In this document: positions 8,339 through 54,009 of the stretch, piece after piece
Position numbering within the stretch: the stretch's first letter is position 1
Layout of the letters: each line of letters opens with the position of its first letter
Assembly (NCBI GenBank): GCA_963921825.1
Contig: OY997592.1
Span: 61,090,336 to 61,154,335 of the forward strand
Source of the DNA: Erodium maritimum
Taxonomy: Eukaryota; Streptophyta; Magnoliopsida; Geraniales; Geraniaceae
DNA length: 64,000 nucleotides
Direction: 5' to 3'
Translations under genes and position numbers: made by a program
The notes under the pieces: generated by a model
The model's input: the letters and a program-made list of their open reading frames with translations, nothing else
Databases searched by the model: none
Told to the model about the DNA's origin: nothing

Positions 8339-9028
8339 CTAAATCGGTAGCATTTTACTTGGATGGCCATGTCGATGCAACGGGGTCTTGTTGTTGTCAA
8401 GGTAATGGAGAATTATAACCATAACTACGGAGGAAGCAAACATAGGTATGGGACCAAAAAACCACAACAACAAATTAAGTGCAAAATAAAGAGCCCTAAA
8501 GCCGGCGGACCAGAAGTCGCCGCCCCTTATGACGGCCAACTTAACGCTGTCGACGGGCACGTCGCTGTCCGGAATGCTTATCAAGTAATTAGCATGCACG
8601 AAGTGCCTCGTGGATTGGACGAAACACGAGAAGGCGAGTAGAAAGCAGGTCAGCAAGCTTATGTACTTGACCGACACGGTGGCCGGACTCGTGTCCCCGT
8701 AGATCACCTGGCTCCGCAGCAGGTCGTCGGTGCTGCTCCCGAGCCATGTTCCGATCAGGGAGCTCAGGGCCAGCGAGATGGAGCACAGGTAGGTTGCGGC
8801 GGAGATATTGGAGCCGAGTACAGATAGAGCTATATTTGCGTCCCTGTCGCGTGCCTTCATGATTCTATCCACCCAAGCTCTCTTGTCGTTGTTCTCGAAG
8901 CCAATGGCTGTGGTGTGAGGGAGGTTTAGGTACCTGTAGAGGAGGTAGAGATGGTAACCCATCATGATCAGCAACCCACTTGGGACGAGAACCACGTCCA
9001 AGTATTGCTCGTGAAACTCAAAACCCAT
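8339..9028 (-). CDS. DUF599 family membrane protein, intronless
   Basis: The complete 229-residue ORF belongs to the plant DUF599 family (PF04654), whose molecular function is not established. The start is MGFEFHEQYLDVVLVPSGLL, with hydrophobic segments at about residues 12-32, 68-92, 118-138 and 183-212, so an integral membrane protein is expected. Family hallmarks visible are GYHLYLLYRY near 24-33, the Asn-rich AIGFENNDKRAWV, RDANIALSVLGSNISAATYL, and the later RHFVHANYLIS and FWSAGFRALYFALNLLLWFFGP. Most relatives are also single-exon and of similar length. No frame break is seen. A Mutator-like MITE lies immediately behind the stop codon. The gene stands alone and reads leftwards. Confidence 0.92.
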   Translation of the reverse strand: MGFEFHEQYLDVVLVPSGLLIMMGYHLYLLYRYLNLPHTTAIGFENNDKRAWVDRIMKARDRDANIALSVLGSNISAATYLCSISLALSSLIGTWLGSSTDDLLRSQVIYGDTSPATVSVKYISLLTCFLLAFSCFVQSTRHFVHANYLISIPDSDVPVDSVKLAVIRGGDFWSAGFRALYFALNLLLWFFGPIPMFASSVVMVIILHYLDNNKTPLHRHGHPSKMLPI

Positions 9029-9566
9029 TTCTTTGTTTCGAGTTTCTTCTTCCGAGGAGTTTTGGGATTTAAGGTTGATTGTGTAACATGTTTTTTTTTA
9101 AAAGGTTTTTCTTGCACTTGTGGTGTTGTGTAGTTTAAGGTTTTCGTGGGGTTTTGAAGTTACTTGGTCGTTGCTTTGAGGAATATCCTTAGAGGACACT
9201 CAATAGAGTTGTGCCAATATACATGTGGCAATATACTTTAATTTATCATATGGTTGATATTGGACCAACATAAATCAATTCATTTATATGATGTATGTTA
9301 TGTGTGCAAGACTTATTTTATTAGGAGAATGTTGAAACGACAACTCTGTTATTGCCCACCATGCCCTATGATCTGGAAGCTAAAAGGGATTAGAGCTCCA
9401 GCTAATCAAGGTTTTAAAAAAAATATTAAAGCTAAGCTTTTTATCAAACAAATCTTGCTCTAGGTGAAGTTTTATATCTAACTATCTATCTTAAATTATT
9501 TTCAATGGTTTCAATATGCATGATCTAATAATCCAAAAAACATATATATTTTGAATAATTTGTTGG
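9029..9566. other. Upstream region of the DUF599 gene
   Basis: AT-rich sequence that should hold the promoter and 5' UTR of the leftward DUF599 gene. No convincing TATA box could be chosen. Short ORFs here have no recognisable content. Confidence 0.35.
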
Positions 9567-23679: not shown

Positions 23680-24514
23680 TCATTTAGAGCAGCAACCACC
23701 TTTCTTCACGGTAGGTACATGACCCATATTGATGGTTTGTCCCTTGGGCAGGGATGCCGGATCTTCCCCGATGTCAAGAGCCTTCTTGCTCACGACATGG
23801 TAGATGTGGGTCAGCACCTCTGTGAAGGCGTCCTCTACATTCGTGGCCTCGAGGGCCGACGTTTCCATGAAGAAGGTCTTCTCCCGTTCAGCAAAACCTT
23901 GGGCGTCCTCAGTTGTCACCGCGCGCAGATGACGCAGGTCTGCTTTGTTGCCGACGAGCATGATCACTATGTTGCAATCGGTGTGGTCTCGGAGCTCCTT
24001 GAGCCACCTCTCCACGTTCTCGTATGTGACATGCCGAGTTACATCGTAGACTAGCAACGCACCAACGGCTCCGCGGTAGTATGCGCTGGTGATTGCGCGG
24101 TACCTATGCCAAGGAAATGTGTTAATGTTAGACCTCAGAATTGGAACCATGTTAGAGCATAAACATGGTATGACCTAAGAAAAACACATCCAAAACAAAA
24201 ACAAAAACAAACCCAAATCTAAGAAACTAAATCAAAACAAACCCAGATGATCAAAAAACGAAATTTAATGTGTATGATATGAACAAAAAAAGCTACCTTT
24301 CTTGGCCGGCGGTGTCCCAAATCTGGGCCTTGATGATTTTGTCGTCAACATGAATGCTTCTGGTGGCGAACTCTACGCCGATGGTTGATTTCGATTCATT
24401 ACTGAACTCGTTGCATGTGAACCGTGACATTAGGTTCGATTTTCCGACGCCAGAGTCGCCAATCAAAACCACCTTGAACAAATAATCGTAATCATCCTCT
24501 GTCAGATACGCCAT
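23680..24514 (-). CDS. RABA1: RABA1-type (Rab11-like) small GTPase, two exons
   Basis: Exon 1 is 24297-24514 and exon 2 is 23680-24103, joined within an Arg codon by a GT-AG intron, giving 213 residues. All Rab motifs are present: P-loop GDSGVGKS, effector [10 protein letters not shown], switch [28 protein letters not shown] and ETSAL. The C-terminus GGCCSK is a double-cysteine geranylgeranylation signal. The wording (VKLVVLIGD-type start [48 protein letters not shown]) is that of the plant RABA1 subgroup, which acts in trans-Golgi/recycling traffic to the plasma membrane and cell plate. I chose the ATG at 24514 because it opens the family N-terminus; an in-frame ATG 23 codons upstream lies in the leader. 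The stop is 452 bp from that of the convergent PDAP1 gene. Confidence 0.95.
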
Positions 24515-34151: not shown

Positions 34152-35606
34152 ATGTCGGGCGACGCAGGGACCCGTGCACAATCAGCTGGTGACGAAGTAG
34201 GATTCACCCCTGACGAACTAGCACAGAATTTGCAAGAAATTCTAAAGGACCCTCGTGAGAACTCCGCTTCCACGGCATACTCGCAACCGAGTTCGAGCTC
34301 AGGTAATTGCAAACTAACTTTTTATTTATTGTATTTTTTTAAAGTCATTTATTGTATTTTTTTTAATTCATTTTCGTAAGTGATTGTTGTTGTTTAATTC
34401 ATGAAACCAATTTATTTAGAATACTTGTGTAATAAAAGTTTTATAATTTCATATTTCTAAGGTCAATTCCGTCCACAACAATTCCAAATGGCGCCACAAT
34501 TCCAAATGCCGCCACAACTTCAAATGTCGTCACAATTCCAAATGTCGCCACAAGGGTTCCAGATGCCACCACAATTCCAGCTTCCACCACAATTCTACAA
34601 CTACCCCGACCACCCACTACCCAACGTAGGCGTCACCCGTAGGTCGCAGCCATCCTCTGCCGGACCTTCCCAACGAGGCCGAGCAACACAGGATCCGAGG
34701 TTATGGACCATCGAGGAAAACCTACATCTCATAGAGTGCTGGCTCTCGACTACAAAAGACACTATTAAGGGAAACTCTCAAGCCGAAAACACATTCGGGT
34801 GCACTATTGAGAGGAAGTTCAACGCGACCGGAGGTCACCACCACTACAACTGGAATGCTATCAAGAAACGTTGGGCCAGATGCCACAGCGGCTGTAACCA
34901 CGAGGAGCACATGAAAAATGCGAAGAGGATGTGGGCGGCTGTACCGAAGGAAGGAATACCGAGGGACCACCCAACACATTTCGACCTGGATCATTGGGTT
35001 TCCGAGCTTGAGGGCAATAACAAGTTCGCTGCCGAGGAAGACACCATGGGTAATGTCTGCCAACAATAACACCAACAACGAAAACGCTTTGATGAGGCTA
35101 AGGCTTATAGCTCAACCCCACCCACAAGCATAAGGGACGATTACACACCTCTTGGTGGTGAGTCCCAACAACCAGAATGGGGAGCTTCCTATCACAACGA
35201 GGGGAGTGAGGTCCCTTTCAGCGACACACACCCCTCCCATGAGGCCGATGCAAGTCCCCCTCAACCAACTCGTCGAACGCGACCAAGAAAGAAGGCAGCG
35301 AAGACATCAAAAAAGGAGACCGTCCTCACGGCCCAAATGAGTGCCTTCGCGGAGATGGAATGTACAAGGTAGGAAGGCAAGATAGAAAGGACCCGCATGA
35401 TATCCAAGATAACCCAACAGTGGGAAGAAAACTTCGCCCTGTACATGTCTATGAGGCAAATTGATACCTCCAACTACACCGAAGAAGATTTGGAAGAGCA
35501 CAAGTCGTGCAAGGCCCGACTGCGAGTAGTCTTGGATACCCTTGAAGGTGAACTTCAAGATCTTCGACGACAACAACCGCCACCGGATGGCAACCCACCA
35601 CAATGA
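34152..35606 (+). pseudogene. PIF/Harbinger ORF1, Myb/SANT-like DNA-binding protein, disrupted
   Basis: Exon 1 is 34152-34302 and exon 2 starts at 34462; the GT-AG intron preserves frame through a split Gly codon. Order of parts: acidic N-terminus, a Gln/Met/Pro repeat region (QFQMPPQ-type units, 34480-34605), then the trihelix-like domain RLWTIEENLHLIECWLS...HYNWNAIKKRWARCHSGCNHE...LDHWVSELEGNNKF. A Pro-rich linker, an RRTRPRKKAAK basic patch and a C-terminal helix follow (MRQIDTSNYTEEDLEEHKSC). ORF1 proteins of this superfamily help the transposase bind DNA and enter the nucleus. The frame is open across 34462-35606 except for two in-frame stops, TAA at 35067-35069 and a TAG near 35370, so the copy is probably inactive. 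Confidence 0.85.
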
Positions 35607-35951: not shown

Positions 35952-38900
35952 GAAAGTTTAATTAGTGGGCGTTACGTCGTCTTTCTTTATTTTTATCTAT
36001 TTCAAAAAAAAAAGCTGGCACTTGGCATCTAGCCAAGTAAGGTTGTCGGTTGTTGTTTTCTGCTTATCGCTTTAGGTTATGTCTCATTGATGTTGCTAGC
36101 CAAACTTTATATACCATACTGTGGCCTGGAATCAATTCAGGCTTCCGCAGCTTGTCGGAGAACAAATCCACAAGAATATAGACCTTGATTGTCGTCAGAA
36201 ATCGATTTTGTCAGTCTTATATAAGAAGGAGGAACGAAGGATCTATACGGAGTGACATAATATTATCGTAAAAGAAATAGTAGAAGAAGGAAGAGTCGGA
36301 GAGGCAGAGTTATCAATAATATCAATTGGACTAAGACTCTTAAGGATTTGTTCTCAAACTGGATAGAATTTCGATTGAGATGTTTTGTTTCCACCGGATT
36401 AGTGTAATATCACCTTTAGTATATATCTCCGTACATTGGCTTTTTTTATACCTCTGTACACGGGGATGTATTATAAACTATTTTGCTCCTAAGAAAAACA
36501 AATGTGCTTGATTTGAAACATGGAAGAACCTTTCCGTTTCTGGTCAGACATCATGAAAGTAATATTGTGGGTTGGTAATGGACACTGTTTGTTGGATCAT
36601 CAGAACATCATCAATCTCATCACTTTGTTGCAACTTTATGTCATGGTACTTTTGTTCCTCATTGTTTGGTCAACTCTACACCATACAAAGTGTTCATGTT
36701 TTTACGTTGTCGATGGAACAAAAAAAGCATTTTTACATTCAACCTCAACTAAATCTAATTACTAGTCAAAGCATAATTCGTACCATACAAAAGATGATGC
36801 GTGTGGTTTTGAAAACAAATAGTATTTCTTTGTCGTTGATTTTTTTTCCGAGATGAATGATAGGATATATTGATAATAAAGTGTATTTATAGGGTAGGAA
36901 AACATTAAAACACTAAACATAAATGAACGTAAATAACTAAAATAAAATGAGTTTTTGCGATAGAGGATATTTAGACAGAAAAATAAAGAGCTCAATTTTT
37001 CGACTATTTCCTGAAATGTCTGGAGGTTGATACTGCGGTAGCGTATGACGACATCGATACAGTGAGTCTAGACTAGCGGAAGCTAGGATCGAGCTGACCC
37101 CTTATCGGATATAGATACTGGTGGACTAAATACTCCCCCAGGATGTCAGCGTGTGTTGTCCTCCCTTGACTGATAGTGGTATGGCTTCTAAACGCGAGAT
37201 TGGTGACCTCCGAGCTGGTAGGGAAGTACCGTGTCGGTTCTTGGTGGGACCGCTGCTACCTTACGTCCAGAGGGGCGATAAAACCGGTCGACCCCCTCTG
37301 GACCGCCTTAGACTCATTCGGCGAGGCGAGGGTGCTTACAGCCCCCTGCCGCTAAATTTTCTACCCCGAGTTGGGTAGATCCGACCGGGGTATGGAACCC
37401 AGACGACCCACTCTCTTGGCCTGACCCGACCCAGAACCTCCTTGAGCCTCTTTGGCCCACTCAGCCTTCAGCCCACTGAGCCTTCAGCCCTCCTCGGCTC
37501 ATCAAAGATTGGGACTCCAACCCTCAACCTGAGCCCACCACGTGAGGTCCGACCCGACTCAGGAACCTTAGGCCCAGGCCGAAACTCACGTCGCCGCGAT
37601 CCGTGGTTCCAAGACGATCCCCTCCTCCGCTAGGTCCTTTCCTCCCTCTGGCCAGCCGGAGTCCCTTCCGCCGCATCATAAGGGTCCAACAGCGGTAGTA
37701 ACAAGCCTGCCTGAGTCGAGCCACCCTGTCGGGATCTTTCCTCACCGAACCGACTCCCTTGTTCCCCGATCCCCTTCTCCACCGGGGGATCCCCTCCCAA
37801 AAGAAACACCTCCTCTGTACAGCCAACCCTGGTCCCCTCTCCCCACCGATGAGCCTCGTCTCGGATGACAGTTCCCGAGGATCATAACAAATAGGGGCAG
37901 AGGTTGTCAGCGGTGAGGATTATGCCACCGCCGAAGGATCTCTACCAACCAACCTACCCGGAGTTCAATACTCGAAGGGGAGGGGTTACGACGAGTAGTG
38001 AAAGAATCCAATCTACTCCAAAAACGATTCGAAGACTCCCAATTGAAAAATTAACAATAGAATGACGAACAGGGGCACAAAAATATACCTCCCCTCCTCT
38101 GTCGTTCACCATGGCTTGCGAGTGCACCTTCTAATTTCCCAATGCCGGCCGGCCTTGACTGCGGTGACGACGGCCCTTCATCCTTACGGAACCCTAGATG
38201 TGCTCTCATCTCTCCCTTAAACAAATCCAATTTATTGATCTTTCTTTGTTGTTGATAAATAGGCACAATTGATTAACTTAAGATAAATATAGACTTAAGA
38301 CATGTATGGAGTTGCTTCTTTATGTATATATGTATGTGTTAGTTGCAATTTTGAATTGAAAATAAGATCATTTTTTTATTATGCGATGAATTAATAGTAT
38401 TTTCTGATGTTGGATAATTTTAAATTTTAAAATTTATATTTAATTTTTTATTTATATACTATCAACATCATCGGTGAATCACGAATTTCACCAGCAATGA
38501 TCATTTTTCTGTTGATCTCGATGTTCTTTAGTTTCATCGGGTCAAACATATAAGCATGATTGTGGAGTTCTTTATCTTTAATTTTCAACCAAACATAATT
38601 AAATAATTAAATAATTCATTTATTGAGTTTTATTTTTATTTTGATGTAATATAAGATTATTATATAATAAAATTGACTACTAAATAATAAAAATGGCTAT
38701 AATTTATATAAGTAACTTAGAGTAAATACTTCAGTTAACTTAACCACTTGTTCAAAATTAGTGTATTTTAACTTAACTAACCTTATATAGTTAAAATCAT
38801 ATCATATGTAATTTATTTGGCTCCTACAATTAATTTTAATAAATATAATTTATCTTAAAATATATAAAAGGATATATTTTAAATTTTTAATAATAAAATA

Positions 38901-39206
38901 ATGACACAAAATAAATATCATATATCTTAGCCATATAACACACACAAAAAAAAATCTTTGATAATTGTTACTCAGAAAGCCCCAAAACATGCACTTAAAC
39001 GACTTTTGTTAGTATAAATATGTTATATATAACGATATTTTTTTCCTCAATAAATGTTTATAACTTTCGTTTATTATCACAAAATAGTGACGTTTATTTT
39101 TTTAAATTTTTCGTTACCTTGGATGAAAAATGAACATGCGATTAGGACATGATCTTTATATTTATCATAAATGTCAAAATTATCCCTAATTACTTTTATC
39201 TAATTG
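35952..39206. other. Intergenic; GC-rich block, then very AT-rich flank
   Basis: No gene was recognised. A sequence around 36210-36240 (TTATATAAGAAGGAGG) resembles a retroelement promoter region, but without other support. From 37020 to 38240 a GC-rich block with many short frames looks like old repeat sequence of unknown family. From 38270 to 39206 the DNA is strongly AT-rich, and the CACTA insertion begins there. Confidence 0.4.
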
Positions 39207-39442
39207 CACTACTGCAGAAATCCACTTGGGTGACGGATAAAATGGATCCGTCACCTAAGTTTTCGCACTCTAGCCACGGATACAGCAATCCGTCAGCCAA
39301 GTGGAACAACTTAGGTCACGGATCCTGTATCCGTCAGCCAAGTAACAAACCTAGCCGACACATAGCTGGATCCGTCACCCAAGTGGGATAAGGTAACTAC
39401 TATCCGTCAGCCAAGTGAGAAACCTTTAGCCACGCATGCTCT

Positions 39443-39830
39443 CACTACTGCAGAAATCGACTTAGGGGACGGATGAAATGGATCCGTGACCTAAGTTTTG
39501 GCACTTAGGTCACAGATACAGCAATCCGTCAGCCAAATGGTGAAACTTAGGTCACGGATCCTGCATCCGTCACCCAAGTGAACCACCAGGCCGACGGATG
39601 CTAGATCCGTAGATAAGGAAACTTATATCCGTCGGCCAACTGGAAAAACTTGACCCACGCATGCTGTATCCGTCAGCCAAGTGAAAAAAAACTTGACCCA
39701 CGGATGTTGTACCCGTCAGCCAAGTGAAAAAAACTTGACCCACGGATGTGCATCCGTCTGCCAACTGACAAACCTTATCCACATGTTGAATCCGTCAGCC
39801 AAGTTCCTTGTATTCGTTGGTAAAGTGAGC
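39443..39830. repeat. Left subterminal repeat array of the inner CACTA
   Basis: Words such as GGATCCGTGACC, CCGTCAGCCAAG and CTTGACCCACGGATG recur every 25-50 bases in both orientations, forming imperfect palindromes. In En/Spm such short subterminal repeats are the binding sites of the element's second protein (TNPA). Confidence 0.85.
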
Positions 39831-40033
39831 CAATATACGAAAGAATGTAACGGTATCCCGAAGAACATAACGACATTACACATGAAATATGTATGAAACA
39901 ATGCGTATATAAAAAAACAGTTGATAGATAATGTGTTTGGAAACAGTTATGGAAACATTTGCCAGATAATGTGTTCACAGAATCACAACATTAAACATAC
40001 TCATAAAAGAAAACACAGACACGCCTAATAGAG

Positions 40034-40417
40034 TTACGAACCAAGCAGGTTTCTGATGACACGCTCCTGCATTTCTTTGGTCACTTCCATCCATTCCACA
40101 AAATGTCCAAACCACGCAGGCTCGGCTCTAGCTTGAAGGTCATTGTCTTGAACCTCGTTCATCCATTCCTCGTTCAACCACGGAGGGGTATGCTGCGGGC
40201 CTCCAACAGGGAGTGGAGGTATGTCCATACCTTTCTCATGCATCAGGTGAGAAATATAGTCGTAGCGTTGATGTGCTTCCTGAACTAATAGGGAATAATG
40301 TTGGACCCACGCTGGGGCAGCTGGAGCGTTGACGCCATGTGGACCAGGTACAACTGTTCCCGCATTTTCACGTCGACGCCACCTACGCTCTAGTCTACGA
40401 TCAGAGTTTGGTTCCAT
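40034..40417 (-). CDS. Unknown ORF C of inner CACTA (127 aa)
   Basis: I do not recognise this protein. The chosen start (MEPNSDRRLERRWRRREN) follows an acceptor-like AAGTCAG 5 bases upstream, so it may be a downstream exon. Residues 1-20 are strongly basic. The middle has WVQHYSLLVQEAHQRYDYIS and a Pro-rich IPPLPVGGPQHTPPW. The C-terminus is helical and Trp-rich (FGHFVEWMEVTKEMQERVIR). It is the distal one of three leftward ORFs in the element, 235 bp after ORF B. It has no similarity to ORFs A and B that I can see. A role as the element's second (TNPA-like) protein, alone or spliced to its neighbours, is inference. Confidence 0.45.
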   Translation of the reverse strand: MEPNSDRRLERRWRRRENAGTVVPGPHGVNAPAAPAWVQHYSLLVQEAHQRYDYISHLMHEKGMDIPPLPVGGPQHTPPWLNEEWMNEVQDNDLQARAEPAWFGHFVEWMEVTKEMQERVIRNLLGS

Positions 40418-40652
40418 ATATCCTGACTTAGTCAAAGAACATATTACAATTATAATCAATCCCAAATACTTAAGTCAAATCATACGCAAATAATATTCAT
40501 ATAAACCAACACTTAATAAATAAAGTGAACAAAAATTAAAACAACCGTTAAACATTCAAATTACAAAGTCATATAAAAAGTGCTATTGAAATAAAAGTCA
40601 TCCTTAACACACATCCGTTAAATAGTAGGAAATTAATATTCTAGCTAGACGT

Positions 40653-41084
40653 CTAGTCTTCGTCCTCGCGCACAAAGTTGTCTTTCAGCCACTGCACGTA
40701 CACCCTTGCGTCATGCTTCGGGCCGCGCATGGAGGTGGCTCCATCAGATGTACGAGACTCTGAGAGAGCAGCAACCCTTGCATGAATACGCCTAGCTCTT
40801 TCCTCAAGCCTAACTCTTACAGCAGCTCGTTCAGCGGCTCGTTCAGCAGCAAGTGTTTGTCTTTCAGCAGCTTCTTCAGCCGCAATCCTTCGTCCCTCTC
40901 GGTTAATGAGGCCCAGTAACCTCATCCGAGTAGCTGCTACAACTCTCGTGCGTGGCAAAGACGCTCTTGGAATGTTGTTGAATAAGCGCATCATCTCAGC
41001 ATGCAAATCAGGCCCCACTTGTTGAGGTCCATCATATTCGTCATCTGGGATAATGTTTTCCCCTACGCTACTTCTGTCATCCAT
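40653..41084 (-). CDS. Unknown ORF B of inner CACTA (143 aa), duplicate of ORF A
   Basis: Starts MDDRSSVGENIIPDDEYDGP. After an acidic N-terminus comes RTRVVAATRMRLLGLINREG, a long Ala/Glu/Arg coiled-coil (EEAAERQTLAAERAAERAAV), then a tail with SRTSDGATSMRGPKHDARVY. Acidic start, TRM-LI-EG segment, charged helix and SDG-TS tail occur in the same order as in ORF A, so the two arose by duplication. It is intact. An acceptor-like CATTTAG precedes the ATG by 3 bases, so it may be reached by alternative splicing from the leader exon at 42203-42420. Family unknown; a DNA-binding or multimerising accessory role is a guess from the basic helix. Confidence 0.5.
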   Translation of the reverse strand: MDDRSSVGENIIPDDEYDGPQQVGPDLHAEMMRLFNNIPRASLPRTRVVAATRMRLLGLINREGRRIAAEEAAERQTLAAERAAERAAVRVRLEERARRIHARVAALSESRTSDGATSMRGPKHDARVYVQWLKDNFVREDED

Positions 41085-41259
41085 TGACTAAATGAAAGAA
41101 AGTCTTAGTACTATATCAAAACGAATATAGCAGAAACAAATTTAAACTTACGTATATTAGCATCATAAAATGTATTAGCATATTCATCACCGAGTCATAC
41201 AAAACGAACTTAAATATAACCTAATTTAAACATCGTTCATACACTAATTAAGTAGTAAA

Positions 41260-41580
41260 CTAGTCTCGGGACGGGCACTTCGAAGTTGATCCATCAGACG
41301 GAGTCCGTCTTGCGCTTCGAGCAGTTTGTCTCGCAGCGGCGACCCTATCTCGTTCTTCCTTTTCCTTTCTAAGTCTATCTCCTTCAGCTGAAATCAGCCG
41401 CCTAATATACATGCGAGTCTTTGCCTCGTGCATCGAAGAAAGTCCCCTAGGCAATTTGTTCATCACTAAGTTCATTGATTTTTCCCAGTCTACTTCCGTC
41501 ACTACGGGAACTTCTTCATCAAAGTGATCTGCCCCAGTTAGGCTGTTCTCCCCAACACTACTGCTATAGTTGTCATCCAT
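41260..41580 (-). CDS. Unknown ORF A of inner CACTA (106 aa), duplicate of ORF B
   Basis: Starts MDDNYSSSVGENSLTGADHF, followed by an acidic stretch, KTRMYIRRLISAEGDRLRKE, a basic helix (RDRVAAARQTARSARR) and the end SDGSTSKCPSRD. It aligns along its length with ORF B, which is longer in the helix and tail. It is the first ORF after a good splice acceptor (TATTAG, about 41595) on the minus strand. A strong donor (CTTCAAG|GTACGT) at 42202/42203 ends a GC-rich leader that faces it. It is expected to be transcribed divergently from the TNP2 gene. Unknown family. Confidence 0.5.
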   Translation of the reverse strand: MDDNYSSSVGENSLTGADHFDEEVPVVTEVDWEKSMNLVMNKLPRGLSSMHEAKTRMYIRRLISAEGDRLRKEKEERDRVAAARQTARSARRTPSDGSTSKCPSRD

Positions 41581-42202
41581 CGAAAGGATAACCTAATACA
41601 CACACGAATGAACTTGTTTTTCAGGATGCAAACATACCGTGCATTATATTAAACCCTACTTTTCTAACTTTTTGAATCTTTGTCACACATGTATCGTATT
41701 TTATTAAACCCTAAAATATTTTGAAACTAAACTTCCCGAAAACCTTATTCAACACAAGGTTAATTATTTGTGCAACCAAAAATTCCTGAAACCTAAAATT
41801 ATTGTGAAACTAAATTGCCCTGAAACCCGTAGCTTAATTCTGCAACCCTACATTCTTTAAACCCTAAATTATGTTGACACTAAATTTCCCGGAAACTAGG
41901 GATGTTATATGAGTCGGATTTTGTGATACCCGTACCCTATCTGATTTTAATACCCAAAACCTGATCAATACCCTACCCAATCTCTACCCATTCGGGTCGG
42001 GTATTACCCCGACTTGTTCATATGACATACGATTAGAAGAAGAGAAAAATGGGGACCTAAGTAACTATTTCATATACATTTAAGTAGTACAAAATATGAA
42101 AGTATACAAACTTTTGCACGTCTCAAGTACCAACATTTCAAATTTTATGAAATAAATCTAAAATCATTTCAACTGTTTTTACAGATTTGAAACATTACGT
42201 AC

Positions 42203-42803
42203 CTTGAAGTGAGGGAGGAGATGGAGGCGTTCGAGCAGAGAGAGGAAGAGCGGCGGCAGGGGCTTTGGAGCAGGCGGTGGCGGGCGGCGGCATGCGGAGG
42301 CGGGCGGTGGCTAGTGGTGGACGACGTCGGACCAGACGGAGGGGGCGGCTGCGATGGAGAGAAGAGAGGAAGTGGGGAGAGTCTGAAATGGGAGGAACTA
42401 GGGTTCTGGGGAGTTAAATACGCGATCTACTTGGCCGACGGATACACGCATCCGTCGGTCAAGGAAAAACGACAGTGTATCGTTTAATGGACGAGTCCAG
42501 GGCTGAAACGGTACCGTTTTATGTGTATCCGTTTCAGCTGGCCGATGGATACGTGCATCCGTCGGCCAAGTGTTTTTCGCTGGACAGATTCTCTGCCACT
42601 TAAAAAACTTTACCTTCTCTCCCATCTCTTTTGCATCTCCCAACTCTTTCTTTCTTTCTTCCCAAATCTCTTTTTTCTCTCCCACCTCCATTTCTTTTTC
42701 TCTACACAAGATTCCCATTTGTTTGTCACTATTGACAAGAATCTTTTGTCTTGTTCGATACTGACAACATTCGTGGCTCGTGGAAGGTGCTTGAAGCTCG
42801 AGA
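42203..42803. promoter_or_regulatory. Divergent promoter and leader region of inner CACTA
   Basis: Left part (42203-42420) reads on the minus strand as a leader exon with AACCCTAG and C/T-rich motifs and ends in donor CAAG|GTACGT. Right part (about 42600-42803) is a C/T-rich leader on the + strand that ends at the TNP2 start codon. Between them, at 42430-42465 and 42539-42570, lie two palindromic copies of the element's own subterminal motif (TGGCCGAYGGATAC and ATCCGTCGGCCAAG). Both units may therefore be controlled by the protein that binds the ends, as TNPA does in Spm. Transcription itself is inferred. Confidence 0.55.
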
Positions 42804-45800
42804 ATGGTACGTATGTTTATTTGATAAATTTTGTTCCTCTTGTTCTGTATATCGATCTATTTATTAGATATTGTGTTCAATAGTTGTTAGTATTGACTGT
42901 GTATCAGGATATTGATAAGAGTTTGATGACTTTCAGTAAGTACGATCCGGAGTTTATGGAAGGGGTAACGGTTTTTATCGAATATATACAGACAAATTTC
43001 CCTAATATTGAATCACACAAGTGTCCGTGCGGTAGTTGTCTTAACGCATTTTACCAGACTGTGCCGGATATATATATGCATTTGATTCGGAACGGAATGA
43101 TGAGGGGTTACGATGTGTGGATTTTTCACGGTGAAAAATTTAACATGCCTATGTTAACAGAAGTAATGAGTAGTAGTAGAAGAAGTTGGGACACTGGAGG
43201 TTCATCAAGTAGCGCAAATGTAGTAGTGAATGAAGAGCACCGGAGCGATCCAGTAATTATGGAGTATATGGACGATGTGTTCCCATTTCGGTGTGGGGGA
43301 CAAATGGATGAATTGGTACAGTATGACGATGAAATTGCGGATGTTGACAGGTCGATTGCGCAAGAAGCGGCATACAACTACACAAAGTTATTAAAAGAGC
43401 ATAAAAAACAGTTGTACAAAGACGCGACAACGGATAGGTTGACGGTTATCATGGAGTTGATGGCTCTAAAGGAGAAATATCAATTGTCGAATGAAGCATT
43501 CACTGCATCTTGTGTGTTGCATAAAGCATTGTTACCGGCTGAGAATCATTACCCGTCTTCATTCAAAGAGGCAAAGAGTGTTTTGAAGAGTGTCGGGATG
43601 GGTTACAAGACTTACCATGCATGTGAAAATGGTTGTATCTTATTCGATGGACCTAATGCGAAAGATGATGTGTGCTACAAATGTGATTCACCTCGCTATG
43701 AGAAGCTCGTCGGAATGCGAAAACCAAAGGCTAAGAAAACTGTTAGATATTTCCCAATTATTCCACAGTTGCAGAAATTGTACAGTTCACCTGATATTGC
43801 AAAGCAAATGCAATGGCATGGTAGTGAGGAAAGAAGGATCGACCCGGATAAGATGACTCACCCAGCTGACGGGGAAGGCTGGTTGGACTTCGATAGGACG
43901 TGGCCTCGTTTTGGATCTGAAGCTGCCAATGTACGTCTTGCATTGGCAACTGACGGGTTTAGTCCGTTTGGTGCAAATGTTGTCCCTTATAGTGTGTGGC
44001 CCGTTATAGTTATGCCTTACAATTTACCTTCAACCTCGTGCATGAAGAAAGAATTTAACATCTTAACGCTGTTGATTTCTGGCCCTAAGTCGCCTGGGAA
44101 GTGCCTAAATGTTTTAATGAGACCGTTGATTGATGATTTGAAAAAGTTGTGGTCCGAAGGGGTTGTAACCTTTGATGCAGCCAACAATCGAACGTTCAAG
44201 ATGCGAGCCGCGGTTTTATCGACTATTAGTGACTTTCCCGGTTTGGGAACGTTGGGAGGCATTCAGACGAAGGGTTATAAGGGTTGTCCAATATGCCTGG
44301 ATGATCTCGAAGGGCTTCACAGTCACAATAGGACGTACTACGTAGGAGCACGGAAGGACTTGCCAGAGAATCATGCATTACGGAAAAATAAAAAAATCAA
44401 CGGGAAACAGGAGATGAAAAAATCCCGCCCTGAAAAGAGTGGGTATGAAATATATGAAGAAATATCGGACATTCAGTTTCCCGAACTGTCGTTACATCCA
44501 AAGTTTACTCAGAAGAACAAAGCCGGCCAGAAAAGGTTGTGTTGGACACATGAGTCGATATTTTGGGAACTCCCGTATTGGAAATCTTTGCATACAAGGC
44601 ACGCATTGGACGTGATGCATATTGAAAAAAATGTGTGCGACAATCTTATTGGAACGCTTTTTAACTTGCCTGGGAAAACAAAAGATGATTTGAAAGCCAG
44701 ACAAATGTGGGAGGAATTGGGTGTGGATAAGGATCTATGGGCCAAAACAACGGGCAACAAGACTTTCATGCCTTATGCCGACTACACGATCAAGCCTGAG
44801 AAACGTGGTGAAGCGCTTGATAAGGTTACAAATATAAGGTTTCCATCGGGCTATGCGGGATCCTTGAAAAACAAGGTAAGCGTGAAGGATAAGAAGTTTT
44901 TTGGGCTGAAAACACACGACAATCATGTTTTGCTGCAACGTATTCTTCCCATCATTGTACGCCCTTATGTGGCACCGCACGTAGCCACCGTGATATGTGA
45001 GCTTGCAAATTTCTTTCAGTCTCTCTGTGCAAGGGAGATTTCAAAGAAGAAGCTAAAAGAGATGCAGGTTGATATTGTATTGATTCTCAGTAAGTTGGAA
45101 ATGATATTCCCTCCACCGTTCCACACGATCATGGTGCATTTATGTAAACATCTCCCATCTCAAGTACTGCAAACCGGTCATGTCCACTATACTTGGATGT
45201 TCTCGATGGAACGTGAATTGGGGTACTACAAAAAATGGGTGCGCAACCACCGATACCCAGAGGGTTGCATCGCAGAATCGTATATCAATCATCAATGTGC
45301 GACGTTCATCAATTTGTACCTCGATAAACGAGTCATGGATCTGGAGACCCCAGATAAATAGGGCATTTCAATTGTTTCCAAACATGTGCTTCCAACTATT
45401 CAGATATGGGAGCCCTTGTTAACAAAGGAATTCGTGCGTATCGCTCATTGGACCGCTATGCAGAATGCTGAAGAATTCAGCTCCGAGATGATTGATTTCA
45501 AAGAGGATTATGAGACGGAATACCCAGGGTCAACTGATTTACAACACCGAATTGGAACATTTTGCTCAATGTTCAAGGAAAACGTAAGTTCAATATCAGT
45601 TAAACGTGTAGTCCTATATATATAAATAAACATATATTTATCAATGTTCGTATATATTACTAATAACTGTAAGGACAAATTCCCAGATGGAATCGTATCC
45701 CGATGACGATCAACAATATACGACATCAAAGGCTCTGAGTCGTTACGTGCAGAGAGTAAATTATTATGCGCAATGTCATGTACACGGTGTGAAATACTTG

Positions 45801-46426
45801 TCCGAACAGCGCGATAAAGGAAGAAGCTCACAGAACAATGGTGTGATGCTAAATGCAGAGGGCGGTGTAGCTTATTACGGTGTGTTGTTATACGTCGTTG
45901 AGCTTATGTACACTGGACGGATGCCGGTTGTTTTGTTTTACTGTCGATGGTATGATCTAAATTCCGTGAAAGTAGATAATGGTTTGATATCCATAAATAC
46001 CAACACAAATGCATATCGCGACGATCCATTCTGTCTAGCAACCATGGCCAAACAGGCAAGTTGCATTAGTTGTATATAGTACATTTTGTTGCATTGTTGG
46101 ATGTGTTACTAATTATTTAATGTGCATAACAGATATTCTACATCGATGACCCGAAAACGGGTGGAGGGTATAAGATCGTGAACAAGGTTGCCCCTAGAGG
46201 ACTATTCATCTCGGCAAATCGTTTGCCATCCATTTCATACGAGGTTGACGCTCCTTACCAAGAGTCCGAGCCTGAAACTGCACTTCTTGTAGTGGAACTA
46301 AATGTGCTACCCCATTATGATGACGGTCTCCAAGAGGTACATGATGTGGACGATAACGACGAGAATAGTGAAGATGACTGCGAAGATCATGGATACAACA
46401 ATGACGAAATACATGAATCCCATTAA
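42804..46426 (+). pseudogene. TNP2-type CACTA transposase gene, one in-frame stop
   Basis: Proposed exons: 42804-42806 (ATG alone), 42908-45583, 45687-46055 and 46133-46426. The start codon sits at the exon edge, ATG|GTACGT, and joins GAT ATT GAT AAG, giving M-D-I-D-K-S as in the family; a second possible ATG at 42884 is intronic. Domains in order: Transpos_assoc (DPEFMEGV, CPCGSC), zinc ribbon-like CENGC and CYKC, Transposase_21 (ALATDGFSPFG, CPICLDDL, LDVMHIEKNVCDNL), DUF4218 (YTWMFSMERELGYYKKWVRN), then DUF4216 (YYGVLLYVVELMY, DDPFCLATMAKQ). The last intron is GC-AG (CAG|GCAAGT). A single TAG at 45359-45361 interrupts the frame between DUF4218 and the following exon; otherwise it is open. 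Without that stop the protein would be about 1,100 residues. Confidence 0.9.
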
Positions 46427-46589
46427 ATATATATAAGCATTGTACTAATATTGTACGTACAAACATGTAACTTCTAATGTGTTGTATGTGTGCAAACTTA
46501 TCAAGTTGAAACAAATGCAATGATTGGCTGTGCAGATAAACTGTTTTCCAGGTGGCATGACGTTTCTTACAAATTTGTTCTACTCTGCC

Positions 46590-49500
46590 CTGTCACTTGG
46601 CCGATGGATGCTAGCATCCGTCTGTCAGGATAGTACCTGGCCGACGGATCCAAGCAGCCACAAAACAGAGAGCAAATGCTCTGTTTCGGTTTGTAATTCG
46701 TGCATAAACCCGTCAAATTGCTTTGTTTTGTATGTTACAGCGTTCATACATTGTTTTACAACACCCTAAACATATATATGATGTGAAAGAAAATTACGGA
46801 AATCATTAAGTCAATTAATCGATTTTTTTAGTTCTCTACCGACATATCCAGCAAATATGTCGGAAAGGTTATGAACACTTGGCTGACGGATGCGCATCCG
46901 TCAGCCAAGTTCTACCTATACGTCGATAGAGATGGTTGACTAATTTGCAAAATTTATTTGACCACTCTATTAACGACGACTGAACCGTTCGATGATTGTT
47001 TTTTTTACATAAATACACTACTGTAGATAGTACATATGTGATGACCGGTCTTGATTATAGCATATGCGAGATACCGACCCGTATTGAGCGAAATCGCCAG
47101 TTCCACTATGTGCTGGAACATATTCAGCTTATAACGTATGACGTTCTGTCGTTCATATTTTGTTATGTGTTAAGTATGAGTAATGTACGATCTTATGTTG
47201 TATATGAGGCATACTACGTACCTATATCATTCAATTATCAATACTGCTATAGTCGGGAAATAATACTGGTTTTTGGGAGTCGGTCAACGTCAGTCAACCT
47301 GGCCTGGCCGACGGATGCATATAACCATCGGCCAGGTTTGTCCATATCGCCAAAAAATGCCAAGTGTTTGTATCAATACGACAGCGTTTCACCCTGCCCG
47401 ACGGATCCAGCCTATACGTCGGGATGGTCATCAGAACTTGGCTGACGGATACACATACGTGAGCCAAGTGCTACCAATACGTGGGTAAAGTGGGTTGACT
47501 ATTTTAAAAAACAAATTTGACCACCATATGAACGAAGAATTAACCGTTCGATGATAGTTTTTTTTTAAATATGTATACTAGTTTGGATAGTAGATACGAT
47601 ATGAGCGGTCTTGATTATATCATATGCGAGACACCGAAACGTATTGATCGAAACCGCCAGTTCCACTATGTGCATGAACATATTCAGCTTATAACGTATG
47701 ACATTGTCTCGTTCATTTTTTGTATGTCATATGTATGAGTATTATACGATATTCTGTCCAAACTATGAGTCATACTAAGTACTTATATCGTTCCATTTTC
47801 AATACTCTGATAGTCGGGAAATATGACGGGTTTTTGGCTTTTGGTCAATGGTAGTCAACTTATGCTGGCTGACGGATGTAGGTATCCATCGGCCAGGTTA
47901 AAAATTTTTGCAAAAAATGCTAAGTGTTGGTGGCAAAATGACATCGTTTTGTCTTGGCCGATGTATATGTACATCCGTCGGGACAGGTCTAAATGTTAGG
48001 TCAAGACCGAGTCCGCCTCCTTTTTCCCTCATTTCTCGCCTCTTCTTCGTTTGTCTTCTCTCCCTCTCTCTCAGTCGCCGGTGACCAATCTCGGCCGATC
48101 CGCTCGTCGCCGACCTGTTCACGCCGCAGGCGAGTCGTACTGGACCAGGGGTTGTCGTCTCCGAGCAGATCGCGTCGTCGACGACGTCTTCAAGGCCAGC
48201 GTCAACGCCTCTCTCGTGGCCGACCTGTTCGTTGCCTACCATCAAGGTCTCCGACCAGATAGCGTGGTCTCCGACCTGTTCGCTGCCGAGCGTCAACGTC
48301 TCCGACCAGAGCTCGTCGTCGCCGACCTCTTCTCGCCCCAGCCTCAACGTCTCCGACCACAACTGTTCGCGCTCCTCTTCGACAGGTACGTGCCTCTAGT
48401 ACAATTATCTTCTTCTACCCTCTTGTAGTTGACGAGGTTGCAAAAATAGAAACTCTCCTGAAAATGAGGTACATTTGTGTATGTTGTTTGTATGTGATGT
48501 TGATGAGAGTAGATTAGGGTATAATGACATGTCAGAGAGGTGGATATAATCTTTAGAATAAGTAGAACCGCTACTAAATGTATGGAGTGTGATTTTAGAA
48601 AGAATATCAGGTGAGGGGTGATTCAATTATGCTCGAAGATAATGAGATTACTAAGATAATCATAAACAGGTACTTTGAATGTGAGATTCAGAGAGTTGAG
48701 AGATTGAATAATAGGATATTAGAAATAGGATTAGTGTAATGTAGTTGAAGTGGGTCAGGGTTTTGTTATTTGTTTAGCTTTACTGGATAAGCATCGTGCC
48801 TTCTTCTGTCAGACCGTCAGCGACTCCTACATCAACGACTCCGGCTTCAGAGACCCCGCCATCAGCCCCGCCATCTTGACCTTAGTCAGTCCTCCCCTTT
48901 TTCCTATGAACATTATGTTATTTGGATAACTGAACTGATAACTTTTTATGTTCTCTGCACTGATAAACTTATTTAGAACTATTATTATTTGATAATGTCG
49001 GTTACATGTTTGGTTGCCGTGTTTATGGTTTGTATGTGTGCTTGTTGTTATTACGGTTTGGATGGTACAGGAACATGTACATTTTACTGCACGGTTGGGT
49101 GCATGAATTTTGAAACATTTTTTTTGTTTTTCTACTCAAACTTGGCTGACGGATACAAGCATCAGCATCCATCGGACATGTTTAGACATGGCCGATAGAT
49201 ACCACCCGTTGGCAAGTTGTTAAACCTTGCCCGACATATTGCACCCGTCGGCAGGGTGGAAGTCTTGCCTGACGGATGTCACCCGTCGGCATGGTGTAAA
49301 CACTTGCCTGACGGGAGTGATCCGTCTGCCAAGATTTCCCACCTTGCCGACGGGTATGACCCGTCAGGCAAGCCATAACACCCTGCCGACGGGTGTCATC
49401 CGTCAGGCAAGAAGTTACGCCTTGCCGACGGGTCCGATATGTCGGCCAGGTGGACATTCCTGCCTGACGTATGATACCCGTCGGCAGGGTCACCGAAGCA

Positions 49501-49739
49501 GAGTGACGGATCGAATCCGTGACTCAGGTGCTCATTTTTGGCAGACGGATAGGTTCCGTCGGGCTATTGTCCAGCGTACCGATGGATTGTTGCATCCGTC
49601 GGCCAAGTACTTGGCCGACGAGACCTGGCCGACGGATCTTGGCCGACGGATGTATCCGTCAGCCAAGATCCAGGCCGACGGATTAGCTAACCTGGCAGAC
49701 GGATCTGATCTGTCACCCAGGTCAAGATCAGCAGTAGTG
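46590..49739. repeat. Right subterminal array of inner CACTA
   Basis: Copies of the TGGCCGACGGAT / ATCCGTCGGCCA palindrome occur singly at 46590-46660, 46880-46910, 47308-47335, 47400, 47862-47897 and 47955-47980. They then form a dense block from 49140 to 49739. In that block a variant, TTGCCGACGGGT with ACCCGTCAGGCAAG, repeats about every 50 bases and alternates in orientation. Confidence 0.85.
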
Positions 49740-50168
49740 TCTATCCGTCACCCAAGTGGGTTGACTATTTTACAACAACAAAATTGATCACAATATTCAA
49801 GATGAATTAACCGTTCGATGATAGTTTTTTTACATACGTATACTAGTTTGGATAGTACATACGAGATGAGCGGTCTTGATTATATAATATGCGAGAGACC
49901 GACACGTATTGATTGAAATCGTCAATTCCACTATGTGCATGAACATATTTAGCCTTACGGTAGTATAACGTATGACTTTGTCTCGTTCATTTTTTGTATG
50001 TGATATGTATGAGTACTATACGATCTTATAATGTATATGAGGCATGCTAAGTACTTATATCGTTCAATTATCAATACTATGATAATCGGGAAAAATGACG
50101 GGTTTTGGGGTTTTGGTCAATGTAAGTCAACTTCAGATGGCCGACGGATGCATATATCCATCGGCCAG
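46934..50168 (+). repeat. About 400-bp repeat, three copies (two inner, one outer element)
   Basis: Copies are 46934-47336, 47493-47899 and 49757-50168. Each starts GGTTGACTA, passes through ACCGTTCGATGAT, CGGTCTTGATTATA and CAGTTCCACTATGTGC-like words, and ends in the GGCCGACGGAT palindrome. The third copy lies in the outer element, so the repeat was already present before nesting. No ORF is conserved among the copies. Confidence 0.85.
48051..48385 (+). CDS. Repeat-containing ORF of unknown function in inner CACTA
   Basis: The GC-rich open frame encodes four imperfect 17-residue repeats of the type LRPxxVVxDLFxxxxQR, at about 48160-48370. It ends at a good donor, TTCGACAG|GTACGT, near 48386. 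A possible next exon follows acceptor TTCTGTCAG near 48810. The opposite strand is also open (WSETLxLGxEQVGD repeats), which shows the 51-bp periodicity rather than proving coding. I know no family for it; a captured host fragment or a TNP1-related exon are both possible. Confidence 0.35.
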
Positions 50169-50242
50169 CTTTTTCATCGATGGATATATGCATCCGTCGA
50201 TGAAAAAGCTGGCCGATGGATATATGCATCCGTCGGCCATCT
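50135..50242. repeat. Perfect 46-bp inverted repeat with 16-bp spacer
   Basis: Arms 50135-50180 and 50197-50242 are exact reverse complements, and even the spacer is a half-copy of the same motif. The arms contain GGCCGACGGATGCATATATC, so this is an inverted tandem of the CACTA subterminal motif in the outer element. A (TA)n tract follows directly. Confidence 0.92.
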
Positions 50243-50485
50243 ATATATATATATATATATAATTATTTCCACTATTTTAATTTTATCTTTGAACTTGGGC
50301 ATCAAATTGAAACCCGACATTGAGCGATCGGTGTCCATAATTCACAAGTTTATAATCATTAGATTGATATTGTTGTCAAAAAAGTTATATAATGTATTTG
50401 ATCACAAAAAAAAACAATATTTTGTACTTCTAATCGAGAAAACGATCAAGAAAATTTGTGTTATCCTTGTCTTAGTATTATATAA

Positions 50486-52524: not shown

Positions 52525-54009
52525 TTAGAGGACATAGTAAAACGATCCGGCTTCAAGGGGTTCGAGAGTGACGCCCCATTCACTGGTCAAAACACGTTGA
52601 CCGTTGGAGTTAAGCAGGGCCACGTCACCACCAAAGGTGTCACGAACGTGGATGGGTCCCGTAGACACCTCGAATGCCACGTCATTGACGAACACTATCA
52701 TCGTAGATCTGGCCTCCATCGCATCAGCCATCCCTACACCTGCACATACACAGTATCAACTCTCAAGCAAGCCATGCACACGTCCTATACCAATCCACAG
52801 ACCTAAAGTCTCGGACCCAACTTTCTAACGTGTGACAAATGTCCTCGTTTGGTCACGAAACATCTTTTTTGTGACTTATCACTCATCAAATCCATCAATC
52901 ATGTCCGCAACTTAAAAAGAATTTTCACTTGTGCTAGGATTGATTTTGTCTCACTCAAATGGGCAATGTAACGATTCAATCTTTTTTAATGACATGCATG
53001 GAGGTTTTAATGTTATACCTTGAACAAGATTGATGGTGGAGGAAAGAGGAAGAGTGGTGGATGGAGGAGGAGCAATGTCATAAGCTGCGGCGGAGCTCAC
53101 GGTGCTCATCATGAGCTGCGTCTCCATCTTCATCTTGGCGGCTTCATCAATCATGTCATCATCTTTCTTGGAACCTCCTTCATTGTAGCCATGGCTCATG
53201 AGCTCGCTGAGTAGCAGATTGGTGGAGGGCCCGGACACGGCGGGTGCGGAGACAACGTTGGACAGCTCCGAGAAGCAAAACCCCTGCGTGTATTGCGGAG
53301 CCTCGCCTTCGGGGAACAGGAAGGTGGGGTCGGGAGAGAAGAACTCGCCGTTGGTGGCAAAGTTGTAATTGTTGTAAGCCAGACCACCAACGTTGTTGCC
53401 GGTGCTGTAGGCGGTTGTGGTGGTGCTGTTGATGATGGAGTTGAGACAGGACATGGTGGACGAGGATTTCTCCGACGAGTACGAGGATGTCGGGGACGGA
53501 GGCAGGCAAGGGGAAGCATTGTGGAGGTGGCGCTGCTTGTTCTTGCTCCGGGATTTGCGGTTCTGGAACCAGTAGAAGACGTTGGCGTCGCCGACCTGGC
53601 CGTACTCCTGGAGCTGAGCCCTAATCTTGCGTATCTCCTCCCGCGGCGGGTTCACCATGCCGGAGTTGAAGATCGCTTCCAGTATGCGGATCTGCTCCGG
53701 CTTAGGGTTCCACCGCGGCTTCGGCTCGGGACTCCTCTCCTCTCCTCCGCCGCCGACCTGGCCCATAACTGCACAAAAACAAAACCAAGAATCAGCCAAA
53801 GTTCAAACGCAATGGCAGTATCGTAATTAAAAGGGTTGGTTTAGAACAGAACGATGATGAGGACGCGAAGGTGAGAAAGGGGCGGCTCTGTGGCAGCCAT
53901 TGGGGAGAAGAGGATTAGGGCTGATCATCATGTCGTGCTGCCATTGATGGTGGTGAGAGTGTGGCTTGGACTTGAACAAGCTAGGCCAGTGTCTGTTTGA
54001 TGAAGCCAT
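52525..54009 (-). CDS. WOX9: WOX9/STIMPY-like WUSCHEL-related homeobox factor, three exons
   Basis: Exons 53853-54009, 53019-53768 and 52525-52739 give 373 residues. WOX9 proteins are nuclear homeodomain factors that maintain cell division in meristems and embryos. The start [20 protein letters not shown] and the Trp-Gln-His stretch are the WOX8/9 N-terminus. The homeodomain spans about residues 65-130, with [20 protein letters not shown] and [20 protein letters not shown]. The C-terminal domain of the WOX9 clade is in exon 3 ([20 protein letters not shown]...GSFYYVL). Between them are Ser/Thr-rich and FxFP-type segments. Exon 1 to 2 uses a weak donor (ATC|GTTCTG); 18 bases upstream another phase-compatible GT (TCGC|GTCCTC) exists. 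The ATG at 53799 is intronic. A TATA-like tract is near 54283-54297. The gene appears intact. Confidence 0.93.

Follow-up and report, generated by a model that had tools for sequence, protein, structure and literature searches.

The 64,000-nucleotide window analysed here (C5:61090336-61154335 of the 763-Mb assembly of Erodium maritimum, GCA_963921825.1) contains a CACTA element in which a TNP2 transposase gene faces away from three short open reading frames (ORFs), named A, B and C, on the opposite strand. Positions are counted from the first letter of the window, of which 38900-50400 was read directly. The three ORFs are real, conserved and of no recognised family, and they probably code for helper or control proteins of the element itself. 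This observation, first made in a sequence-only reading of this one element, is real and larger than first described. The divergent, probably spliced module may be a lineage-specific functional replacement for TNPA/TNP1, that is, a regulator binding both the ends and the central promoter, an interpretation to which slightly better than even weight is given. The features concerned are as follows.

39443..49739, + strand: inner CACTA element, 10,297 bp, with terminal inverted repeats (TIRs) CACTACTGCAGA.../...TCAGCAGTAGTG and target site duplication (TSD) TCT at 39440-39442 and 49740-49742
39443..39850, no strand: left subterminal repeats, 14 copies of the motif TTGGCYGACGGAT in 408 bp
40034..40417, - strand: ORF C, 127 amino acids, stop TAA; four predicted helices and a conserved N-terminal RLERRWRRRENAG
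40423..40485, - strand: putative intron of 63 nt separating exons B and C (GTATG donor, GTCAG acceptor)
40653..41084, - strand: ORF B, 143 amino acids, stop TAG; acidic N-terminus, predicted 67-residue basic helix, conserved C-terminus
41088..41151, - strand: putative intron of 64 nt separating exons A and B (GTAAGT donor, ATTTAG acceptor)
41260..41580, - strand: ORF A, 106 amino acids, stop TAG; paralogue of B
41593..41597, - strand: 3' splice acceptor before A, ATTAG/GTT, with the AG kept in 35/35 copies
42203..42430, - strand: leader exon, GC 0.64, probably noncoding; donor 42203/42202, with the 5' end at 42430 a guess
42429..42571, no strand: divergent promoter region with two motif palindromes (42431+/42450- and 42538+/42557-)
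42804..46426, + strand: TNP2 transposase gene; probable ATG, then a GTACGT donor at 42807, with the following exon starting at 42908
46431..49739, no strand: right subterminal region, 37 motif copies, with repeated units about 560 bp apart

Distribution of the divergent module

The proposed orientation, with TNP2 on the + strand facing away from a leftward A-B-C unit, is fixed in this genome. Among the 150 best matches to PF02992, 110 are preceded within 15 kb by a divergent A or C, 40 have neither, and 0 have A or C solely in another arrangement; this count was made from the kb positions of the TNP2 and C matches and part of the A matches, with B matches left out. The order of A, B and C is constant wherever all three are found, across 77–96% DNA identity. 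The 2.8 kb upstream was read for five TNP2 matches, of which one, belonging to the 110, has A, B and C all present, and the four module-free ones are without A, B and C. Taken with the 110/40 split, these readings indicate that the module is probably a feature of a single large TNP2 lineage and that not every CACTA element of the plant carries it. TNP2 genes without A or C nearby are seen, for example, at C2:345176, C6:14211812, C4:20330300 and C4:2117943.

Homologues of A, B or C outside the CACTA family had been named beforehand as a sign against the module. None turned up among the best 150 matches per search, with about 2.8 kb read at many loci and no plant protein database searched.

ORFs A, B and C

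As proposed, the three small ORFs are all open on the - strand. Each has at least 150 scored matches in the same genome, window included, these being the best 150 of 587 (B), 598 (A) and 1103 (C) first-look candidates. By hand count, 112/150 B, 124/150 A and 102/150 C matches are without an internal stop, figures that flatter the ORFs in that they come from best-scoring rows, some of them partial, with frameshifts uncounted. A second subfamily, found with the C of sibling locus L031 as query, gives 53 rows at 90–100% identity, 45 of them stop-free by hand count; four C copies, including the query, are identical over 124 amino acids and lie on four chromosomes. Chance ORFs were considered as an explanation and are ruled out by the copy number, the kept signals and the neutral simulation described below.

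A and B are diverged duplicates, as had been suggested, with hhalign (93.6%, E 2e-7) supported by tblastn, in which the B of L027 searched against A copies gives best E values of 3e-9 to 2e-8 in several. No relation was found for C, which was compared with B alone. The acidic start and basic helix that had been ascribed to both duplicates hold for B, the three parts of which have isoelectric points of 4.3 (N-terminus), 11.8 (central helix) and 5.0. The structural model of B consists of a short helix, the 67-residue helix and a C-terminal helix (predicted local distance difference test, pLDDT, 72; predicted template modelling score, pTM, 0.44), and that of C consists of four helices (pLDDT 65, pTM 0.51).

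Pfam scans at E up to 1, made with the window A, B and C and with 24 members of A/B and 16 of C, gave no match to PF03004 or PF03017. Nothing significant was returned by an NCBIfam scan of the window ORFs, by PDB sequence searches with B and with A/B and C profiles, or by Foldseek against the PDB with the modest models of B and C alone. In IMG/VR, the A/B alignment yielded 24 pattern matches and the C alignment 119, with 0 confirmed relatives. PF03004 and PF03017 had no match in the host genome and likewise none in the control genomes, so the host result does not demonstrate that these families are missing; PF02992 did match. By the tests made, A, B and C fall outside the TNPA and TNP1 families, but they may work like them; with no PF03004 or PF03017 match, the earlier description of them as TNPA-like is at most a working analogy.

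Leader exon and splice signals

The GC-rich leader exon and its strong donor at 42202/42203, both noted earlier, were found as described; the donor reads CAAG/GTACGT on the - strand, with the leader ending CTTCAAG/GTACGT. The splice that had been drawn from 42203 to 41594 keeps its donor, and its acceptor is shifted: the AG occupies 41593-41594 and the first exon base is 41592, not 41594. Twenty copies, the window one among them, extend far enough upstream to be scored for a leader donor (GTACGT, GTATGT or GTAAGT), and 19 of these have it; in L026 and L027, blastn does not align the leader itself. Before each ORF, the acceptor AG is kept in 35/35 (A), 34/35 (B) and 33/35 (C) copies and the ATG in 34/35, 35/35 and 34/35, respectively, from 37 loci with two per ORF left out because no match began in their first four residues. 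By eye, the donor GT of the A–B intron is seen in 20/23 aligned rows and that of the B–C intron in 20/21.

The distance from the AG to the ATG varies between subfamilies in a frame-breaking manner, being 3 or 2 nt for B and 5 or 1 nt for C, with 0 in two copies. Given this spacing, each ATG is probably the true start and the leader is probably noncoding. In the window copy, the starts of exons B and C have donors 64 and 63 nt before them, respectively, which suggests that the leader, A, B and C belong to one pre-mRNA and that B or C would be exposed by skipping of exons.

Palindromic motif of the ends and promoter

The motif TTGGCYGACGGAT was counted across the element on both strands with up to three mismatches. 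There are 14 copies at the left end, 4 in the promoter and 37 in the 3.3 kb at the right, with 2 in TNP2 and 0 in A-B-C, and the shuffled element has a mean total of 3.7 and a maximum of 9. Between the two genes, 4 or 6 copies (up to two mismatches) are found in 17/17 placeable window-type loci; placement needed both gene starts, and L016 and L025 were not placeable. At the same threshold the window form has 0 matches between the genes of L026 and 1 in L027, where the promoter palindromes are mostly TACCGACGGAT.

The motif was compared in 13 window-type loci, L026 and L027, of the 20 long loci. A T at position -5 is found in 12/19 promoter copies of L026/L027 vs 0/37 of the window-type loci (Fisher 9e-8) and in 19/37 vs 41/244 copies at the ends (Fisher 1e-5), p values that are too small because motif copies are not independent. 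An A at position -4 is present at the ends in 23/37 copies of L026/L027 vs 47/244 of the window type. The TACCGACGGAT promoter form (TACC) also occurs in seven other loci (L029, L030, L031, L034, L040, L042 and L047), and the form in L037 and L041 is GGCCGACGGAT. A motif difference shared by ends and promoter would be the expected mark of one factor acting at both; repeat homogenisation could also give such a parallel difference.

Signs of selection and possible exchange between subfamilies

Between subfamilies, the ratio of nonsynonymous to synonymous substitution (dN/dS) is 0.62 for A, 0.61 for B and 0.62 for C (bootstrap 0.35–1.10, 0.42–0.91 and 0.39–0.99, respectively), and with private codons masked it is 0.61, 0.59 and 0.61; L025 and L028 were left out of these pairs, and 5/35 A, 8/35 B and 14/35 C copies have no full-length open frame. 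Length variants of B keep the frame. In a neutral simulation of substitutions only, the chance that two lineages both keep A, B and C open is 4e-4, 3e-5 and 4e-6 at 0.10, 0.13 and 0.16 substitutions per site per lineage, respectively. Among window-type copies, dN/dS is 0.040/0.039 for A, 0.044/0.041 for B and 0.041/0.049 for C, near 1. Taken together, these values suggest that the transposing lineage is under mild purifying selection while single copies decay neutrally. The earlier argument from intactness to selection gains some support for the lineage, where the between-subfamily ratio of about 0.6, the kept signals and the simulation point to constraint; the intactness of one copy proves little because window-type copies have ratios near 1. 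Random frame decay in sibling copies, listed earlier as a contrary sign, was not seen between subfamilies.

The TNP2 ratio is 0.17–0.18 against L026 and L027 (dS 0.74–0.75) and 0.31–1.03 against seven closer copies. Between the window copy and L026/L027, dS is 0.18–0.29 for A and B and 0.44–0.55 for C, vs the value just given for TNP2, and the A-B stretch is the best conserved, at 86–88% vs 66–85% in TNP2 windows. The L028 copy is a mosaic. The low dS of A and B relative to TNP2, together with the mosaic L028, points to exchange between subfamilies or to constraint at the nucleotide level. The best conserved segments between subfamilies are 40443-41443 (vs L026/L027) and 39693-41192 (vs L028).

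Element boundaries and neighbouring features

The element is a CACTA member by all features tested. It starts with CACTACTGC... and finishes with ...GCAGTAGTG (CACTA/TAGTG test), a 3-bp TSD of TCT stands on both sides of the window element, to which the duplication test was confined, its transposase matches PF02992 Transposase_21 (E 3e-70) as expected for CACTA (En/Spm) elements, and it carries direct and inverted short subterminal repeats. The sequence-only reading placed it at 39443-46426. The left end is correct, with the left TIR CACTACTGCAGAAATC starting at 39443; position 46426 is the end of TNP2, and the right terminus ...GATCAGCAGTAGTG ends at 49739, followed by the second TCT. The alignment of sibling L024 also reaches 49739, and an exact CACTACTGCAGA is found at the left end of 13/20 sibling loci, with varying flanking triplets.

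The TNP2 gene encodes Transpos_assoc, Transposase_21, DUF4218 and DUF4216 domains on the + strand. Its start is probably the ATG at 42804 with a donor directly after it and the next exon at 42908, a layout also exhibited by L026 and L027. The transposase had been described as nearly intact; TNP2 of the window copy is not intact, being interrupted by one in-frame TAG at 45359-45361; several other copies have open TNP2 frames of more than 900 amino acids.

The studied element is inserted in another, related CACTA copy with its left end at 39207. This outer copy occupies 39207-39442 and 49740-about 50240, with similar repeats resuming after 49740, and no right end for it was found within the window. 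A GC-rich block at 48020-48395 contains 51-bp tandem units and a donor-like GTACGTG, and is perhaps a second, rightward leader. A private capture was considered for this block (48020-48400) and ruled out, since 40/40 scored genome places (of 136 candidates) match at 91% or more; it is therefore part of the CACTA family. Elsewhere in the window, the segment at 52951-53802 (-) is presumably a coding exon of a WUSCHEL-related homeobox gene, WOX11/12-like, and 23680-24174 (-) is taken to be an exon of a Rab-type small GTPase. The ORF at 34461-35069 (+) appears similar to the Myb/SANT-like first ORF of PIF/Harbinger elements, and the 252-codon open frame at 8339-9097 (-) is presumed similar to a DUF599-type membrane protein.

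Comparison with known systems

PIF/Harbinger elements, which belong to a different superfamily, have two genes, one for a transposase and one, ORF1, that is Myb-like, and their ends are bound by a small helper. VANDAL elements are Mutator-like, an element kind other than CACTA. The VANDAL/VANC system of Arabidopsis is alike in having an element-coded factor with co-evolving target motifs in noncoding repeats, according to the available part of the source (PMC10398659).

For the CACTA systems, the accessible portion of one report (PMC2613891) states that TNPA and TNP1 have little similarity and both bind subterminal repeats; in En/Spm and Tam1, alternative splicing of transcripts gives rise to the transposase as well as to this repeat-binding protein. 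As described there, En/Spm (tnpA/tnpD) has CACTA ends, a TNP2-type transposase, subterminal repeats, a second protein binding them and several splice products; the ends, the transposase and the repeats are shared by the present element, for which a second binding protein and splice products are predicted. En/Spm differs in that overlapping transcripts of a single direction encode both of its proteins, whereas the accessory unit here is divergent and consists of three short ORFs with no PF03004/PF03017 match. The TNPA/TNP1 trait of sharing the transposase's reading direction is absent, with 110 placed pairs divergent and 0 only otherwise. Tam1 (TNP1/TNP2) and the soybean Tgmt* are also alike in pairing TNP2 with a binding protein that is dissimilar between families, and differ in that these are exons of one gene in one direction; A/B/C-like ORFs are not mentioned in that portion of the text (PMC2613891).

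The soybean TgmR* and the general CACTA 'ORF2' elements combine TNP2 with a second ORF of unknown role, and in the parts of these papers available the single ORF2 is of unknown or variable content (PMC4219821, PMC4158355, PMC8978399). They differ in having one ORF2, with Transposase_24 or Peptidase_C48 domains in some Chenopodium elements, compared with three ORFs and no recognised domain here. In lettuce, tnpA candidates were filtered by Transposase_24, as reported in the section available (PMC8195511). No divergent three-ORF CACTA unit was found in the literature examined, itself seen in part, outside which most subscription papers lay, and the arrangement is not claimed to be unpublished.

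Proposed function and alternatives

In the proposed mechanism, the central promoter region would drive transcription of TNP2 rightward and of the noncoding GC-rich leader leftward. The leader would be spliced to exons each containing one complete small ORF, and exon choice would set which protein is translated. At least one of A, B and C would bind the palindrome TTGGCYGACGGAT-N6-ATCCGTCRGCCAA, with B/A dimers acting through the long basic helix as the first guess. Binding at the subterminal repeats would aid TNP2 in pairing or cutting the ends, and binding at the promoter palindromes would control both transcripts. Unrelated proteins would thus perform the job of TNPA/TNP1 in En/Spm and Tam1.

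Several observations weigh against this proposal. No Pfam, NCBIfam, PDB or Foldseek (B, C) match names a DNA-binding domain, the fold models of B and C are weak by the scores given above, and TNP2 itself might be the motif binder. The motif difference comes from two fully read second-type elements and from copies that are not independent; at position -4 the promoter difference is not significant (15/19 vs 19/37, p 0.08), and T at position -5 is less clean at the left end of L026/L027 (8/20). No ACGGAT instance is present in the stretches read of L025, L032, L038 and L043 (1,850 bases in L025, shorter in the others), and within its 1,850 upstream bases L025 has neither a leader donor nor the motif. 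Introns of 63-64 nt, as predicted here, are short for plants. The bootstrap upper limits of dN/dS are 0.91–1.27, window-type copies are near 1, and the exchange or nucleotide-level constraint to which the data point muddies these ratios.

An anti-silencing role like that of VANC, in which A, B or C would bind the noncoding motif and remove DNA methylation, allowing the family to escape silencing, is unlikely, although VANC target motifs in noncoding tandem repeats evolve synchronously, by the part of the account available (PMC10398659), just as the motif here differs alike in promoter and ends, and a large subfamily has near-identical C copies. A, B and C have no significant Pfam match, and VANC is likened to them by description only. 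The motif is located where TNPA-type factors act, and this placement does not discriminate anti-silencing from a TNPA-like role. It is unlikely that TNP2 alone binds the motif and A-B-C act otherwise, for example in nuclear import, RNA binding or dosage control. TNP2 and A-B-C do travel together in the lineage, and sequence cannot tell which protein, if any, binds the motif; in En/Spm, however, subterminal repeats are recognised by TNPA and not by the TNP2-type TNPD (PMC2613891, available portion).

Old captured pieces of host genes, carried as roleless Pack-CACTA cargo, would agree with dN/dS values of A, B and C only moderately below 1 and with the frequent capture of host fragments by CACTA elements reported in the available text of PMC8195511. 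This explanation is improbable for a module that is present in every sampled subfamily and divergent beside TNP2 in 110 placed cases, with ATGs and acceptors kept, B length variants in frame and 45/53 second-subfamily C copies open by hand count. The donors and acceptors between the ORFs would also permit A, B and C to be exons of one protein with the stop codons spliced out, but every exon contains a conserved ATG and a stop of its own, and such a fusion is disfavoured by AG-to-ATG spacing that is out of frame between subfamilies, making it highly improbable. Returning to element-coded regulators, a wider proposal is doubtful but keeps an appreciable chance: a three-protein, sequence-specific system of self-control or anti-silencing, encoded by a divergent, alternatively spliced module and independent of TNPA/TNP1 and VANC, that would act on one palindrome in the ends and its own promoter, with protein and motif co-evolving between subfamilies.

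Self-regulation of CACTA elements is known from few systems, and the two helpers TNPA and TNP1 resemble each other little. The present family, with 150 or more readable copies of each ORF, several subfamilies and a motif differing between them, would allow a direct test of protein–DNA co-evolution and of a TNPA-like or anti-silencing role. Three unnamed protein families also gain a defined context, which spares annotators from listing them among host genes.

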